A stretch of DNA of 64,000 bases from Hyphomicrobium sp. (lineage in GTDB: Bacteria; Pseudomonadota; Alphaproteobacteria; Rhizobiales; Hyphomicrobiaceae): NCBI RefSeq assembly GCF_019753045.1, contig NZ_JAIELN010000010.1:1-64000 (forward strand), given 5' to 3'. A program made the position numbers and the translations under genes. The first letter of the stretch is position 1. Each line of letters begins with the position of its first letter. The notes under the pieces are model-generated. The model was not told where the DNA came from. It ran no database searches and saw nothing but the letters and a program-made list of their open reading frames with translations. Shown one piece after another: positions 40,659 to 49,831 of this stretch.

Positions 40659-40688
40659 AAAACTCAACCTCCGCCAAGGCGTTGGCGG
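40659..40688 (-). terminator. Possible intrinsic terminator at the parB 3' end
   Basis: On the minus strand CCGCCAA (40688-40682) pairs with TTGGCGG (40677-40671) around a four-base loop, and GTTTTT follows after the parB stop. The hairpin overlaps the final parB codons. The gap of about eight bases between stem and T-tract makes this only a moderate candidate. Confidence 0.5.
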
Positions 40689-41536
40689 ATGTAGTCGAGC
40701 TGGTCGAAGTTGCCGTACCTGATCGTGAGGGTGCCGGTTTCGCCGGATCCGCGGCGGACTTCGACCTTCAGGCCGAGGAGATCGGTCAGTTCCTTCTCGA
40801 AGGCCTTCGTATCGGCATCCTTGTCGCGCGCGCGACGGTTACCGGTCGGGCCTTGTTCTCCGAAGGTTTGGACAAGCGCCTCGACGTCCCGGACGTTCAA
40901 GCTATCGTCGATGATCTTCTTGGCCAGCGTCTCGGCATCGGTGCGGCCGATCAAGGCGCGGGCGTGACCTGCCGTGAGCTGTCCCTGCTGGACGAGCGAT
41001 TGCACGCCCGTCGGCAGCTTCAGCAGCCGGAGCGTGTTCGCGACGTGGCTGCGGCTCTTGCCGATGATTTCGGAGAGCTGCTCCTGGCTGTAATCGAAGC
41101 GCTCGACCAGTTCGCGATAACCAGACGCCTCTTCGATCGCGTTGAGGTCCTGGCGCTGGACGTTCTCGATGATCGCCAGCTCAAGGACTTCGCGGTCGGT
41201 GAGCTCGCGGATGATCACCGGGATGTTGTGCATCCCGGCCTTTTGCGCCGCGCGCCACCGTCGTTCGCCGGCGACGATCTCGTAACCGCCCGACATGCCG
41301 TTCGGACGAACGACGATCGGCTGGACGAGGCCTTTGGTACGGATCGATTCCGAGAGTTCCGCGAGTTCATCTTCGCGGAAGTCCTTGCGGGGATTGAGCG
41401 GGCTCGATTTGACCTCAGCGATCGAGACCATGCGCTGCTCGCCTTCCGGCGGAAGGCGGTGTCCGAGGGGTGCCGGGTCTCCGATCAGAGAGGCAAGGCC
41501 ACGTCCCAGGCGGCTCTTCGGCACTACGGAATTCAT
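40664..41536 (-). CDS. parB: Chromosome partitioning protein ParB
   Basis: ParB binds parS near the origin, spreads or slides as a CTP-gated clamp, and with ParA moves sister origins apart. The 290-residue protein has a short N-terminal ParA-contacting region (RLGRGLASLIGD), the CTP-binding ParB/Srx domain with GERRWRAAQKAG, the helix-turn-helix parS-reading region (YSQEQLSEIIGKSRSHVANT), TAGHARALIGR, and a C-terminal dimer domain. Its likely targets are the GTTTCACGTGAA-type sites at 43.8-49.8 kb. It follows parA by 66 bp. Confidence 0.96.
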   Translation of the reverse strand: MNSVVPKSRLGRGLASLIGDPAPLGHRLPPEGEQRMVSIAEVKSSPLNPRKDFREDELAELSESIRTKGLVQPIVVRPNGMSGGYEIVAGERRWRAAQKAGMHNIPVIIRELTDREVLELAIIENVQRQDLNAIEEASGYRELVERFDYSQEQLSEIIGKSRSHVANTLRLLKLPTGVQSLVQQGQLTAGHARALIGRTDAETLAKKIIDDSLNVRDVEALVQTFGEQGPTGNRRARDKDADTKAFEKELTDLLGLKVEVRRGSGETGTLTIRYGNFDQLDYIRQRLGGG

Positions 41537-41602: not shown

Positions 41603-42448
41603 TCAGGCTGCCTTGTAGCGCCGTTCGCGTTCCATGATTTCGGTCGCCAGCCGGATGTAGGCCTGGCTGCCGGCGCAATCGTAATCGTAGAGGAGGATCG
41701 GTTTGCCGTGCGACGGCGCCTCGGCGATGCGCGTGTTGCGCGGAATGACGGTGTCGTAGACCTTGTTGCCGAAGAAGGCGCGGACGTTGTCGGCGACTTC
41801 GCGTGACAGCGACGTGCGCCCATCATGCATCGTCAGCACGACGCCTTGGATCTCGAGGCGCGGGTTGAGCGTCGCGCGGATTTGCTCGATGGAATCCTTC
41901 AACTGCGAAATACCTTCGAGCGCGAAGAACTCGCACTGCACGGGAACCAGCACGGCATGCGCCCCGGACATCGCATTGAGCGTCAGCAGGTTCAACGACG
42001 GCGGACAGTCGATCAGGACATAGGTGAAATGGGTGTCGGCATCGCGCGCGCGCTGATGCCCGATCATGGCCGTGATCGCGTCGCGGAGCTTGAATGCTTT
42101 GTTTTGATCGGTTGCGAGCGCTGCGTCGATGCCGACGAGATCGCTGTTCGCCGGCACGACGAAGAGGTTCGGGACCGCGGTTTTCAGGACCGTGTCGAGG
42201 ATCGCGGCATTGCCGGTCAATACGTCGAACGTCGTCTTGAAGCGCTGCTCGATATCGATGCCGAGGCCGGTCGATGCGTTGCCCTGGGAGTCGAGATCGA
42301 GAATGAGAACCCGCTCGCCCACGGCCGCCAAGGCGGTGCCGAGATTGATTGCGGTCGTCGTTTTGCCGACGCCGCCCTTCTGATTGGAGACAGCCACGAC
42401 ACGCGGTCCCGCGTTCGCACCGCCCGTGCCTGATACGTAGCCGGCCAC
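41603..42448 (-). CDS. parA: Chromosome partitioning ATPase ParA
   Basis: ParA is the Walker-type ATPase that drives ParB-parS complexes across the nucleoid. The 281-residue protein has the deviant Walker A KGGVGKTT (24-31) in AVSNQKGGVGKTT, switch regions LDLDSQGNAS and YVLIDCPPSLNLL, and VLTMHDGRTSLSREVADNVR. It is the short chromosomal type without an N-terminal DNA-binding domain. It begins at GTG, 4 bp after the rsmG stop. Confidence 0.96.
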   Translation of the reverse strand: MAGYVSGTGGANAGPRVVAVSNQKGGVGKTTTAINLGTALAAVGERVLILDLDSQGNASTGLGIDIEQRFKTTFDVLTGNAAILDTVLKTAVPNLFVVPANSDLVGIDAALATDQNKAFKLRDAITAMIGHQRARDADTHFTYVLIDCPPSLNLLTLNAMSGAHAVLVPVQCEFFALEGISQLKDSIEQIRATLNPRLEIQGVVLTMHDGRTSLSREVADNVRAFFGNKVYDTVIPRNTRIAEAPSHGKPILLYDYDCAGSQAYIRLATEIMERERRYKAA

Positions 42449-42452
42449 GGGT

Positions 42453-43109
42453 TTATCCCTCCATCCTTGGCTTCAACGCTTTGAGCAACACAACGCGGCC
42501 AGCCTCTTCCGTAACGCTTGGAATCAGCTCAAAGGCAAATTGCCAGTCTCGAGCTGCGTTCTCGAGTTCGGCCGAGACGTCACGGCCCTTCAAGAACATG
42601 CCAAGCGTAGAAGACGCAAAATAAGGTGCCGCGATCTCGACCAGTCGCGAGAGTGGTGCAAGAGCGCGCGCGGTAACGCAGTCGGCCTTGCCTACCTTAG
42701 CCTGAGTCTCGGGATTTTCGATCCTCATGCCCAGAATGTCCACAGCAACGCGGGTTTCGCGGGCGACTTCGCGCATGAATGCGGCCTTTCGGCTGTCGCT
42801 CTCGACCAATATGTGGCGCGTGCCGCCGGTTTCGGAAGCCATGATCGCCAGGACGAGACCGGGGAAACCGGCGCCGGAGCCGAGATCGAGCCAGGTTCGG
42901 GCATTTTCTGGGCGGTAGCGCCAGAGCTGGGCGCTGTCAGCCAAATGGCGGTGCCAGATCTCGTCGAGCGTGCTCGGTGCGACGAGGTTGATCGTTTTCT
43001 GCCAGCGTTTGAGAAGAGCTGCGTAAGTCTCTAGTTTTTCACGGACTTCGCGTGAAATTCCGAAACGCCGCTGGAATTCTTCCGGGGTATCGATCCGCAC
43101 CAGGCTCAT
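42453..43109 (-). CDS. rsmG: 16S rRNA (guanine527-N7)-methyltransferase
   Basis: RsmG (GidB) methylates G527 of 16S rRNA. The 218-residue protein has the SAM-binding motif WLDLGSGAGFPGLVLAI, RHILVESDSRKAAFMREV, and VTARALAPLSRLVEIAAPY, as expected. Its ATG shares one base with the mnmG stop (TGATG), so translation is coupled. mnmG-rsmG-parA-parB is the classical origin-proximal order. Confidence 0.95.
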   Translation of the reverse strand: MSLVRIDTPEEFQRRFGISREVREKLETYAALLKRWQKTINLVAPSTLDEIWHRHLADSAQLWRYRPENARTWLDLGSGAGFPGLVLAIMASETGGTRHILVESDSRKAAFMREVARETRVAVDILGMRIENPETQAKVGKADCVTARALAPLSRLVEIAAPYFASSTLGMFLKGRDVSAELENAARDWQFAFELIPSVTEEAGRVVLLKALKPRMEG

Positions 43110-45100
43110 CAGGCGCTCTTGAACTCGCCCTGGGGGACGGTCCTGCCTTCGCCCTTGTTATCCCTCGTCCCGTCCTTGGCTGCCTTGAGCCGGGCGAGCA
43201 GGGTGAGAAGCGCGGCGGGCGTCATACCCTCGAGCCGTCCGGCCTGGGAAATCGTTGCCGGGCGGTGGCGAGCCAGCTTCTGCCGGATCTCGGCGGACAG
43301 GCCCGGAATAGCGGCGTAATCGAAGTCGGCCGGGATGCGGACGGCTTCGTCCCGCTTCAGCTGGGCCACATCTTCGTCCTGGCGCCGCAGATAGGCGGCA
43401 TACCGGCCATCGACCTCGAGCTGGGCCGCCACGGCCGAATCGATCTTGCCGATCTCAGGCCAGACGGCCTTCAGGCGGTCGAGGGAGATTTCCGGAAAAG
43501 CCAACAACTCGAAGGCCGTACGACGGCGGCCGTCGCGGTTGACCGCGAAGCCATGGCGAGCGGCTTCGGTCGGGGTCATGGCGAGCTGGTTCAAGAGGTT
43601 CAGGCCGTCGGCGAGGGCCTTGGCCTTGGCTTCGAACTTGCGGCGACGCTCAGGGCCGATGCAGCCGAGTGCTATACCTTCCGGCGTCAGGCGCTGGTCG
43701 GCGTTGTCGGCGCGCAGTTTCAACCGGAATTCGGCCCGTGACGTGAACATGCGATAGGGCTCGGAAACGCCGCGGGTAATGAGGTCATCGACCATCACAC
43801 CAAGGTAGCCGGCGGTGCGCGAAACGGCGTACGTTTCACGTGAATCCTCCATATCCGCTTGATTTGTTTCACGTGAATCCGTTTCACGTGAATCACTGGA
43901 GGTTGAATCGCGCGTGGTTTGGCTTGCCGTCAGGGCGGCGTTGATGCCGGCGAGCAGACCTTGGGCGGCGGCTTCCTCGTATCCGGTCGTTCCATTGATC
44001 TGACCGGCGAGGAAGAGGCCCGGCAGGCGCTTGACCTCTAATCCCGGAGTCAGCTCGCGCGGATCGACGTAGTCGTATTCGATGGCATAGCCAGGGCGCT
44101 TGATCACGACATTCGCGAGACCCGGCATCGTTTTAAGGAAGGCGTCCTGGACTTCCACGGGAAGCGATGTCGAGACGCCGTTCGGGTAGATCGTGTCGTC
44201 GTCGAGGCCTTCGGGCTCGAGGAAGATCTGGTGGGCCGCGCGGTCGGCGAATCGCACGACCTTGTCCTCGATTGACGGGCAATAGCGCGGGCCAACGCTT
44301 TCGATTTGGCCGGAATACATGGGAGAACGCGCGAGATTGGCGCGAATGATCTCGTGCGTTGCCGCGGTCGTGTACGTGATCCCGCAGGCGATCTGCGGGG
44401 TCTTGATGGCCTCTGTCAAAAACGAGAAGGGCACCGGGTCGTCGTCAGCCTTTTGCATTTCGAGGCTCGCCCAATCGATCGACTTGCCGTCGAGACGCGC
44501 TGGGGTGCCTGTCTTCAGGCGGCCGAGCTTCAGCCCAAGCCCGTAGAGCCGCTCGGAGAGCTTGAGGGCAGGGGCTTCGCCAGCCCGGCCGGCCGGGATC
44601 TTCTGCTCGCCCATATGAATGAGGCCGTTGAGGAAGGTGCCGGTCGTCAGAATGACCGCGCCTGCCTTGAGGTGCCGGCCATTCGCCGTGATCACGCCCT
44701 GGACCCGGCCTTCGTTAACGATGAGGTCTTCGACCCCGCCTTCTATGACGTCGAGGTTCGGGATAGCGGCGATTTCGGCCTGCACGGCCTGGCGGTAAAG
44801 CTTGCGGTCCGCTTGGGTCCGGGGGCCGTGGACTGCCGGGCCTTTCGAGCGGTTGAGCAGCCGGAACTGGATGCCCGCTACGTCCGCGACGCGGCCCATC
44901 AGGCCGTCGAGGGCGTCGATTTCGCGGACCAGATGGCCCTTTCCAAGGCCGCCGATGGCCGGATTGCACGACATTTCGCCGATCGTCGCGAAGGCGTGGG
45001 TGACGAGCGCCGTCCGCGCGCCCATCCGGGCCGCAGCTGCTGCCGCTTCGGTTCCGGCGTGGCCGCCGCCCACTACAATGACGTCGTACGTGCTGTTCAT
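43109..45100 (-). CDS. mnmG: tRNA uridine-34 5-carboxymethylaminomethyl modification enzyme MnmG, with parS-encoded insertion
   Basis: MnmG with MnmE builds the cmnm5 group at U34 of tRNAs, using FAD, NADH and methylene-THF. The protein (663 residues from the ATG at 45100) has [59 protein letters not shown] and [17 protein letters not shown]. Between NAALTASQ and [11 protein letters not shown] it carries about 41 residues where about 15 are usual. The extra segment contains three DSRET pentapeptides (403-407, 408-412, 419-423), each encoded by a parS-like site. The fold on either side is intact, so the insert is probably a surface loop that tolerates the sites. Confidence 0.93.
43833..43846. 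other. parS: parS-like site 1 (inside mnmG)
   Basis: GTTTCACGTGAATC carries the palindrome TTCACGTGAA (43835-43844) and closely matches the alphaproteobacterial parS consensus TGTTTCACGTGAAACA. It encodes DSRET (residues 419-423) of MnmG on the minus strand. Confidence 0.8.
43866..43879. other. parS: parS-like site 2 (inside mnmG)
   Basis: Identical 14-mer to site 1, preceded by T, giving TGTTTCACGTGAATC. It lies 33 bp from site 1, a multiple of three, and encodes MnmG residues 408-412. Confidence 0.82.
43881..43894. other. parS: parS-like site 3 (inside mnmG)
   Basis: Same 14-mer, 15 bp from site 2, encoding MnmG residues 403-407. Sites 2 and 3 are adjacent with a single-base gap. Confidence 0.8.
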
Positions 45101-45214
45101 GGCGTGGATCATGACCTGGGACCTAGCGCATCCGGGGATCGCGCAAAAGGCGGTATGTCGCCGGAGGTTGCCCACAGGAGTCTGAAAAATGGGGGCTTGC
45201 GAATCCGAGAATCA

Positions 45215-45226
45215 TTTCACGTGAAA
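45215..45226. other. parS: parS-like site 4 (between mnmE and mnmG)
   Basis: The perfect 12-bp palindrome TTTCACGTGAAA, flanked as CATTTCACGTGAAACC, lies in the 136-bp gap between the mnmE stop and the mnmG start. It could also influence mnmG expression when ParB is bound. Confidence 0.82.
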
Positions 45227-45236
45227 CCTTTTGGAC

Positions 45237-46550
45237 TCACTTGCCGATGCAGAATCGACTGAAAATTTGGTCAAGGACGTCCTCGACGTCGACCCGGCCA
45301 GTGATCCGGCCCAGCGCATGGGCAGCGCGGCGCACGTCTTCCGCCCGGAGTTCAATGGCGTCGGCCGGGCCGCTAAGGAAGGCGCCGATATCCTTCAGGG
45401 CATTTTCCAGGGCTTCGCGGTGCCGGGCTCGCGTCAGCGCCGGTTCGGTTCCGGTGCCGACGGCCGCATGAGCGCGGCGGGCGATCTCGGCGATGAGCTG
45501 GTCGATGCCGGCGCCGGTTTTGGCCGAAATCGCTAAGCCACTGATTTCCGACTCAAATCCAAGATCTTGTTTGGAACGGATTTCAAGACTTGTTTCACGT
45601 GAAAAACTAAGTGGCGGAATCGATTCAGAATTTTCCGTTAACCACAGCACCAGGTCGGCGTCGCGAGCGGCGGCGAGGCTGCGCCGGATGCCCTCGCGTT
45701 CGATATCGCTCGCGGCTTCACGGATGCCGGCGGTGTCGGAAACGATGACCGGGAGGCCGGCGAGATCCAGCCTGACCTCGATGACGTCGCGGGTCGTCCC
45801 AGCTTCAGCGGAAACGATTGCAGCTTCGCGGCGGGCGAGGACGTTCAACAGACTCGACTTTCCCGCGTTCGGCGGTCCCAACAGGGCGACACGAAAGCCG
45901 TCGCGAAGAATCTCGCCGCGATGGCGGTCGTCGAGATGCGCGGCGACTTCTTTTTGAAGCGATGCTGCGCGTTTTCTTGCTTCGGCAAACGACGATGCCG
46001 AGACATCACCTTCATCGGAGAAGTCGATTGCCGCTTCAGTCAGCGCGGCAATCTCAATCAATCGCGTCCGCCAGCTTTCGTAGATCTTCGAGAGAGAGCC
46101 TGCGGTTTGCGCCAATGCCTGGCGGCGCTGGGCGTCGGTTTCTGCGTCGATCAGATCGGCAAGGCCTTCAATCTCCGCGAGATCGAGCTTGCCGTTTTCG
46201 AAGGCGCGACGGGCGAATTCGCCGGGCTCCGCCAAGCGGCATCCGGCTATTTTACCGAGCGCCGATAGGATCGCGGCGATGACTGCGCGACTTCCGTGGA
46301 TCTGGAACTCGGCGATGTCTTCGCCTGTTTCGGTCGAAGGCGCCTTGAACCAAATGACAACGGCTCTATCGAGCGCTTCTCCGGTCGTTGGATGTTTGAT
46401 GGTCCGGTAAGCAGCGAAGCGCGGCTTCGGCAATGGCCCAGTCATCATTTCGAGAGCCTGCTGCGCAGCAGGCCCCGATACGCGGATCACGGCGACGCCC
46501 GCGCGTCCCGGTGCGCTCGATAGCGCGAAGATAGTTGAAGCCTCATTCAT
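45237..46550 (-). CDS. mnmE: tRNA modification GTPase MnmE
   Basis: MnmE partners MnmG in U34 modification and hydrolyses GTP. The 437-residue protein has the N-terminal folate-binding domain ([20 protein letters not shown]), a G domain with [22 protein letters not shown] and SDTAGIRE, and the C-terminal catalytic cysteine in FCIGK. A parS-like site lies in the G-domain region, encoding SFSRETS, a segment that looks like a short local insertion between NSESIPPL and LEIRSKQD. It is upstream of mnmG on the same strand. Confidence 0.95.
45591..45606. other. parS: parS-like site 5 (inside mnmE)
   Basis: TGTTTCACGTGAAAAA matches the consensus TGTTTCACGTGAAACA at 14 of 16 positions, the best match in the window. 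On the minus strand it encodes the FSRET of MnmE, in the same codon register as the mnmG sites (TCA CGT GAA). Confidence 0.85.
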
Positions 46551-49793: not shown

Positions 49794-49821
49794 AAAAGGC
49801 CGCTCGATTGGGCGGCCTTTT
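49794..49821. terminator. Bidirectional intrinsic terminator between the desaturase gene and rho
   Basis: AAAAGGCCGC (49794-49803) pairs perfectly with GCGGCCTTTT (49812-49821), with A-rich and T-rich flanks on both sides, so it can end both the plus-strand desaturase and the minus-strand rho transcripts. Its right arm runs into parS-like site 7. Confidence 0.88.
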
Positions 49822-49831
49822 CACGTGAATC
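49818..49831. other. parS: parS-like site 7 (overlapping the rho/desaturase terminator)
   Basis: TTTTCACGTGAATC contains TTTCACGTGAA and the same right flank as sites 1-3. Four bases are shared with the terminator stem. It is the site nearest the candidate oriC, about 3 kb away. Confidence 0.7.

Follow-up and report, generated by a model that had tools for sequence, protein, structure and literature searches.

The mnmG locus and its palindromes

The window analysed here is a 64,000-nucleotide stretch of a Hyphomicrobium sp. genome (contig NZ_JAIELN010000010.1), and the genes of interest lie on its minus strand in the order rho, mnmE, mnmG, rsmG, parA and parB. The mnmG gene (43109..45100) starts with an ATG at 45100, ends with a stop codon at 43109-43111 and encodes a protein of 663 residues that matches TIGR00136 (mnmG_gidA) at 814 bits, against a cut-off of 524.85, as well as PF01134, PF21680 and PF13932. 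It is preceded by mnmE (45237..46550; NF003661, 580.6 bits, cut-off 380) and followed by rsmG (42453..43109; TIGR00138, 122 bits, cut-off 99.5). Next come the partition genes. The protein encoded by parA (41603..42448), which is located next to parB, has AAA_31 and CbiA Pfam matches and no NCBIfam equivalog at its cut-off among the matches listed. The product of parB (40664..41536) matches TIGR00180 at 197.9 bits (cut-off 58.45), contains ParB_N, HTH_ParB and ParB_C domains, and has 6t1f, Chromosome-partitioning protein ParB, as its best PDB match.

Three identical 14-mers within 62 bp of mnmG, all read in one frame as DSRET, had been noted in the initial annotation. Exact copies of GTTTCACGTGAATC are indeed recovered on the plus strand at 43833..43846, 43866..43879 and 43881..43894; in the sense of mnmG they read GATTCACGTGAAAC and encode DSRET at residues 419-423, 408-412 and 403-407, respectively, at intervals of 33 and 15 bp. 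Each copy differs from the chromosomal parS consensus, the 14-bp palindrome GTTTCACGTGAAAC, by a single mismatch near the end, and the 10-bp core is exact. Beside them, GATTCA at 43904..43909 (residues 398-399) appears to be the remnant of a decayed further 15-bp unit, and its codons, GAT TCA, are retained in all ten of the long-loop genomes described below.

The site set of the window exceeds these three. Further parS-like sites are present in the gap between mnmE and mnmG (45214..45227), inside mnmE (45592..45605), where the site is read FSRET in the variable loop that precedes the G4 motif, and 14 bp past the stop codon of rho (49818..49831, TTTTCACGTGAATC). In the 4.5-Mb genome as a whole, TTTCACGTGAA occurs at seven distinct places, six of them within 6 kb (C9:43834-49829), and a control pattern read backward occurs at none. 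Allowing up to three mismatches to the motif, the window holds 15 matches versus 6.55 expected, a number reached in none of 100 shuffles. The seventh genomic place (L200, G000:C8:178351-182362, around 2001) is in a 152-residue open reading frame and is read VSREM.

The mnmE site is also found at 18 loci of the same genus (L001-L011, L014-L019 and L021), where it is read FSRET, ISRET or VSRET, or, in L016, VSRES at another point in the loop; it is likewise present in L058 (Glycocaulis) and in L079 and L103 (Hyphomonadaceae). MnmE was considered as a second protein with a grown loop and rejected, as its host loop varies in length whether or not the site is present. Like the rho-side site of the window, one located 4.7-5.0 kb upstream of mnmG occurs in at least five long-loop relatives among those listed (G001, G007, G010, G014 and G019). 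In G023, a genome of the same family, there are 24 TTTCACGTGAA places on 12 contigs, several of them paired 34 bp apart, which is far above the number in the other 40 genomes searched.

Of the partition genes, parA is approximately 1.4 kb and parB 2.3 kb away from the loop sites. Counted on an alignment and in Caulobacter numbering, the encoded ParB keeps Q162, G170, K171, S172, R173, N178, G201 and R204, which are named as parS-contacting residues in PMC7383237; position 184 is K, not A. According to the same paper, any residue is tolerated at 184 in parS-specific variants, but a mutant with R, T, K and G at the four positions is listed as promiscuous. PMC6650430 describes binding of TGTTTCACGTGAAACA by the ParB of H. 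neptunium. Judging from the retained residues and by analogy with the H. neptunium protein, binding of ParB to the loop sites, the GATTCAC variant included, is expected. The 102 sites located directly upstream of mnmG include GATTCACGTGAAAC 20 times and GTTTCACGTGAATC 12 times; both variants are common there.

The extended loop of MnmG

The three sites are located in a loop segment of 50 residues (382-431; 43808..43957, minus strand), and the earlier estimate that this loop is about 25 residues longer than in ordinary MnmG agrees both with the 24-25 residues found in most relatives and with an insertion relative to E. coli MnmG structures. When the protein is aligned to E. coli MnmG of known structure, the break falls in this very loop, from query residue 391 to 420. 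The insert is predicted to be disordered: in an AlphaFold model, residues 396-420 (43841..43915, minus strand), roughly the 25-residue insertion, have pLDDT values below 50 and are flanked by helices at 374-393 and 432-443. Other stretches below 50 are residues 86-93, 299-307 and the C-terminal tail; the mean pLDDT is 83, and the best fold matches of the model are MnmG structures (9hip_C, 2zxi, 3cp8 and 3ces). The mnmG frame is free of inner stop codons in all ten long-loop genomes.

Distribution of the loop and its sites

The MnmG sample comprised 110 loci, of which 12 were dropped as duplicates by their last 300 residues, leaving 98 distinct proteins; loops were found by tblastn and alignment and measured as the segment after GYEEAAAQG. 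Loop length falls into two classes, 44-54 residues in ten proteins and 22-32 in 88. The ten long-loop genomes all belong to the genus of the window (G000, G001, G003, G007, G010, G012, G014, G016, G017 and G019), and the remaining 11 genus genomes with a readable loop have 25 residues each; one of the 22 genus genomes, G015, yielded weak matches of another family only and is counted in neither class. Every one of the ten long loops holds two or three sites, versus none of the 88 short ones, so that in the alignment check proposed earlier, insertion and loop sites fully coincide. The refuting case named in the initial annotation, a loop conserved as protein in relatives devoid of the palindrome, was looked for among the 98 distinct MnmG (88 short-loop and ten long-loop) and not found.

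In a tree of MnmG built without the loop, the ten long-loop genomes are on one side of one branch, with support of 100/97, and on this tree the long loop with its sites arose once, in one Hyphomicrobium clade. That clade splits into a subclade of four genomes with two sites and a subclade of six with three. Hyphomicrobium facile DSM 1565 (L031) has three copies, and its MnmG is 94% identical to that of the window, the closest among the matches listed.

A single site elsewhere in mnmG occurs at 18 of the 88 short-loop loci. An insertion was looked for behind nine of these (L029, L050, L057, L058, L067, L079, L090, L103 and L105) and rejected; existing residues are replaced and nothing is inserted, and loop growth is thus unnecessary for hosting parS. 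In Parvibaculum-type MnmG (for example, L057, L067 and L105), a conserved parS-like site is located near the C-terminus, at about residue 610, where it is read IHVK without an insertion. One of the three reading frames of the palindrome contains TGA, and all 44 intact sites inside mnmG at the 98 distinct loci use the two open frames, 28 of them frame 0 and 16 frame 2.

Conservation of the sites as DNA

Among the ten long-loop genomes, in which mnmG identity is as little as 77%, all 26 loop copies are in frame and identical over 14 bp, against a divergence of 23-52% at fourfold sites when the mnmG of the window is compared with that of the other nine. In alignment columns with a D, S, R or E common to all ten, a single codon is used in 9/9 site columns versus 14 of 110 others (Fisher p 8e-8); the loop register in this test is imperfect, and direct listing of the loop codons shows the same invariance. 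Given how codons are used in 12 window genes, the probability that DSRE is written GAT TCA CGT GAA is 0.0031 per copy. Serine is TCA in every copy, a codon that makes up 8.2% of serine codons in those genes. The wobble base of the threonine codon, just outside the 14-mer, varies among G, A and C. Linkers between the loop sites vary in residues and in length, the last site being 30, 33 or 45 bp from the preceding one.

The codon invariance despite fourfold divergence, the free wobble base outside the 14-mer and the probability of 0.0031 argue that the DNA is held, and not only the peptide; by these comparisons, the loop sites in mnmG are conserved at the DNA level beyond coding need. The suggestions in the initial annotation that these are parS sites and that a tolerated MnmG loop grew to host them are both supported by the comparative tests, namely the distribution of sites over long and short loops (10/10 versus 0/88) and the 26 identical copies. 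Its further proposal, that selection on the DNA site is coupled with selection on the protein loop, stands in its first half only: selection at the DNA level is indicated by the 26 identical copies and the codon test, but there is no sign of peptide selection for DSRET. What was called coupling would then be tolerance by the protein rather than a dual function.

Loss of the site after mnmG

The usual layout in the sampled loci is one site in the mnmE-mnmG gap and another directly after mnmG. In the 260 nt that follow the mnmG stop codon, an intact site is present at 81 of the 88 short-loop loci versus 0/10 of the long-loop loci. For 62 of these 81 sites, a long RsmG-like frame translates the site as SRE, and the other 19 were left unassigned by that frame test; seven of the 88 short-loop loci are also without an intact site after mnmG. 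Within Hyphomicrobium, the intact rsmG-start site is found in 10/11 short-loop genomes, and site-bearing and site-less RsmG line up without a gap at the SRET residues.

In the window, the start of rsmG carries what appears to be a degenerate former parS (43045..43058; ATTTCACGCGAAGT on the minus strand), which has four mismatches and is read ISREV. Over the whole long-loop clade, the peptide at this position is ISREV (three genomes), ISRET, VSNEV, VSDEI, ISNAV (two), ISAET or VSAET, and the best 14-mer has two to seven mismatches. In two of the ten long-loop genomes (L002 and L003), the rsmG site still has an intact 10-bp core, TTCACGTGAA, and its three mismatches are all outside that core; a third genome (L004) retains the ISRET peptide with the DNA site broken by a synonymous change from CGT to CGC; erosion of the rsmG site is thus incomplete. 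That the RsmG peptide drifts once its DNA site is no longer maintained suggests that selection had not acted on the peptide itself. As the long-loop clade has one origin, the coincidence of the loop with rsmG erosion counts as a single evolutionary event rather than ten, from which cause is not provable.

Probable growth of the array

The insert of the two-site subclade consists of four 15-bp units, in the order decayed, parS, decayed, parS. Compared in phase with the parS unit, the decayed units match at 8-11 of 15 letters in seven of eight cases and at seven in the other; a single random unit would reach ten or more of 15 letters with a probability of 0.0008, and, being related to one another, the four genomes are not four independent tests. 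In the three-site subclade, the first leftover unit retains GATTCA and matches at seven letters, and the spacer preceding the last site matches at two to seven of 15, which is little likeness. With leftover units matching at only two to seven letters there, a history of tandem copying leans mostly on the two-site subclade. Since 15 bp correspond to five codons, units copied in tandem would leave the reading frame intact, and the repeat structure of the insert points to such copying as the probable mechanism of array growth. The 29-bp double site of the loop is also found, in the opposite sense, in the mnmE-mnmG gap of a sister species (G020, L019). Inverted copying of this intergenic pair was considered as a possible origin of the loop array; the flanks show no further likeness by eye, and the pair may be a source.

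Paired sites elsewhere and known systems

Pairs of TTCACGTGAA spaced 5-35 bp apart are found in 20/385 genomes of the class, 53/297 of the order and 11/22 of the genus. At least one pair was examined in each pair-bearing class or order genome (G272 has 16 pairs, of which some were examined), and among these examined class and order pairs, only that of the window's genome is completely contained in a match to mnmG, mnmE, rsmG, parA, parB or rho. Most pairs of the order sample are in the mnmE-mnmG gap. In the class sample, several pairs are found in the interval separating mnmG from rsmG, and those at L128 and L129 overlap the rsmG match at its 5' end. None of the six genes was matched near the pairs at L117, L118, L119, L150, L180, L196, L197 and L198, for which other host genes are possible. 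Ten of the eleven genus pairs are those of the mnmG loop, and the remaining one (G020) is intergenic. At L199 (G272:C5:83891-86120, positions 2001-2195), six parS are arranged in tandem with a 37-bp period directly after mnmE.

The pairs in the mnmE-mnmG gap of many Hyphomicrobiales resemble that of the window in their close parS spacing, but they are intergenic, whereas the pair of the window is inside mnmG. The rsmG-start parS of related Alphaproteobacteria (VSRET or ISRET) has the same motif in the same SRET frame, in the neighbouring gene, but as a single site. Coding parS sites are known: in the available part of PMC4368675, nine of the ten parS of P. aeruginosa PAO1 are described as most likely within coding sequences, where, as here, palindromes are read as codons of ordinary genes. 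Unlike the case of Hyphomicrobium mnmG, no protein insertion, in-frame array or displaced intragenic site is mentioned in that part. For repABC replicons, positive selection of parS inside coding sequences has been hypothesised by the authors of PMC9040568; these sites are similar in their coding location but differ in belonging to replicons and, in the text available, in having no described growth of a host-protein loop. A literature search, mostly outside subscription journals, did not turn up any in-frame parS array described as enlarging its host protein. While parS in coding sequence is known, a protein insertion grown to hold an array appears to be new.

A probable centromere array inside an enzyme gene

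It is very probable, on the comparative sequence evidence, that the 62-bp segment is a three-site parS array of the centromere beside parAB, read in frame in mnmG, that it was amplified in the loop and that the rsmG site then eroded. The neighbouring ParB would be expected to load on the array. In the ancestor of the clade, a 15-bp parS unit would have arisen in, or been copied into, the MnmG loop after the FAD domain, and its amplification in tandem would have given MnmG a disordered insert of 19-29 residues. Some loop units would have decayed into linker, and two or three copies would have been held letter for letter by selection on the DNA, with the peptide probably a passive product. With the loop sites present, the ancestral site at the beginning of rsmG, about 0.8 kb distant, would have become unneeded and eroded.

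It may instead be that selection acts on the DSRET repeats as part of the protein, for example as a flexible charged linker or an MnmG binding motif, and that the palindrome is incidental to the codons used. The peptide, too, is constant in all 26 copies, and SRET-like peptides recur in MnmE and RsmG. This is nonetheless very unlikely, as the codons do not vary despite the 23-52% fourfold difference, with serine always written as a codon of 8.2% usage, and as copy number (two or three) and linkers do vary. The segment is also predicted to be disordered, and of the ten long-loop genomes only one keeps ISRET in RsmG; in the other nine the peptide has decayed at a broken or altered DNA site. Just as improbable is a neutral and recent tandem repeat, similar to a microsatellite and too young to have diverged. 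The 15-bp periodicity would fit such a repeat, as would the adjacent copies 15 bp apart in the three-site subclade and the in-phase decayed units of the two-site subclade, but the copies are common to ten genomes down to 77% mnmG identity while flanking units have decayed, no mutated full copy occurs among the 26 in the ten long-loop genomes though decayed units are present, and six of the seven genome-wide places are near parAB.

CACGTG cores serve other regulators, and the role of ParB at this locus is read from sequence, so the palindromes might bind another regulator of the CACGTG type. That the 14-mer is one base off the parS consensus, that the same variant is located upstream of mnmG in relatives, that the sites crowd beside parAB and that ParB has the parS-reading residues all make this explanation extremely improbable. 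It is fairly unlikely that the sites bind ParB and are spare copies with no necessary role, the work being done by the intergenic and mnmE sites, an idea that is compatible with the anatomy of the in-frame array. Three further sites are present within 6 kb, and there is a precedent in P. aeruginosa, where one of four ori-proximal sites suffices according to the title of PMC4368675. However, the copies have stayed identical while fourfold sites diverged by 23-52%, which implies that losing them is costly to fitness, and an intact rsmG site is absent in all ten genomes with loop sites.

For the in-frame centromere array, the wider reading seems somewhat more likely than not: a partition site left rsmG and took shape again within mnmG as a tandem array in frame, so that a disordered segment of 19-29 residues in an enzyme is set by DNA segregation, and the peptide of the old host decays once freed. 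If this is true, the same genus offers a natural before-and-after experiment. A fixed DNA signal would shape a conserved enzyme, the protein yielding by growing a floppy loop, and the neighbouring protein would drift after the signal moves. A single locus would then allow selection on the DNA to be told apart from selection on the protein, in a genus for which a named strain bearing the array is available from a culture collection, and synonymous recoding would put the turnover of a bacterial centromere directly to the test.
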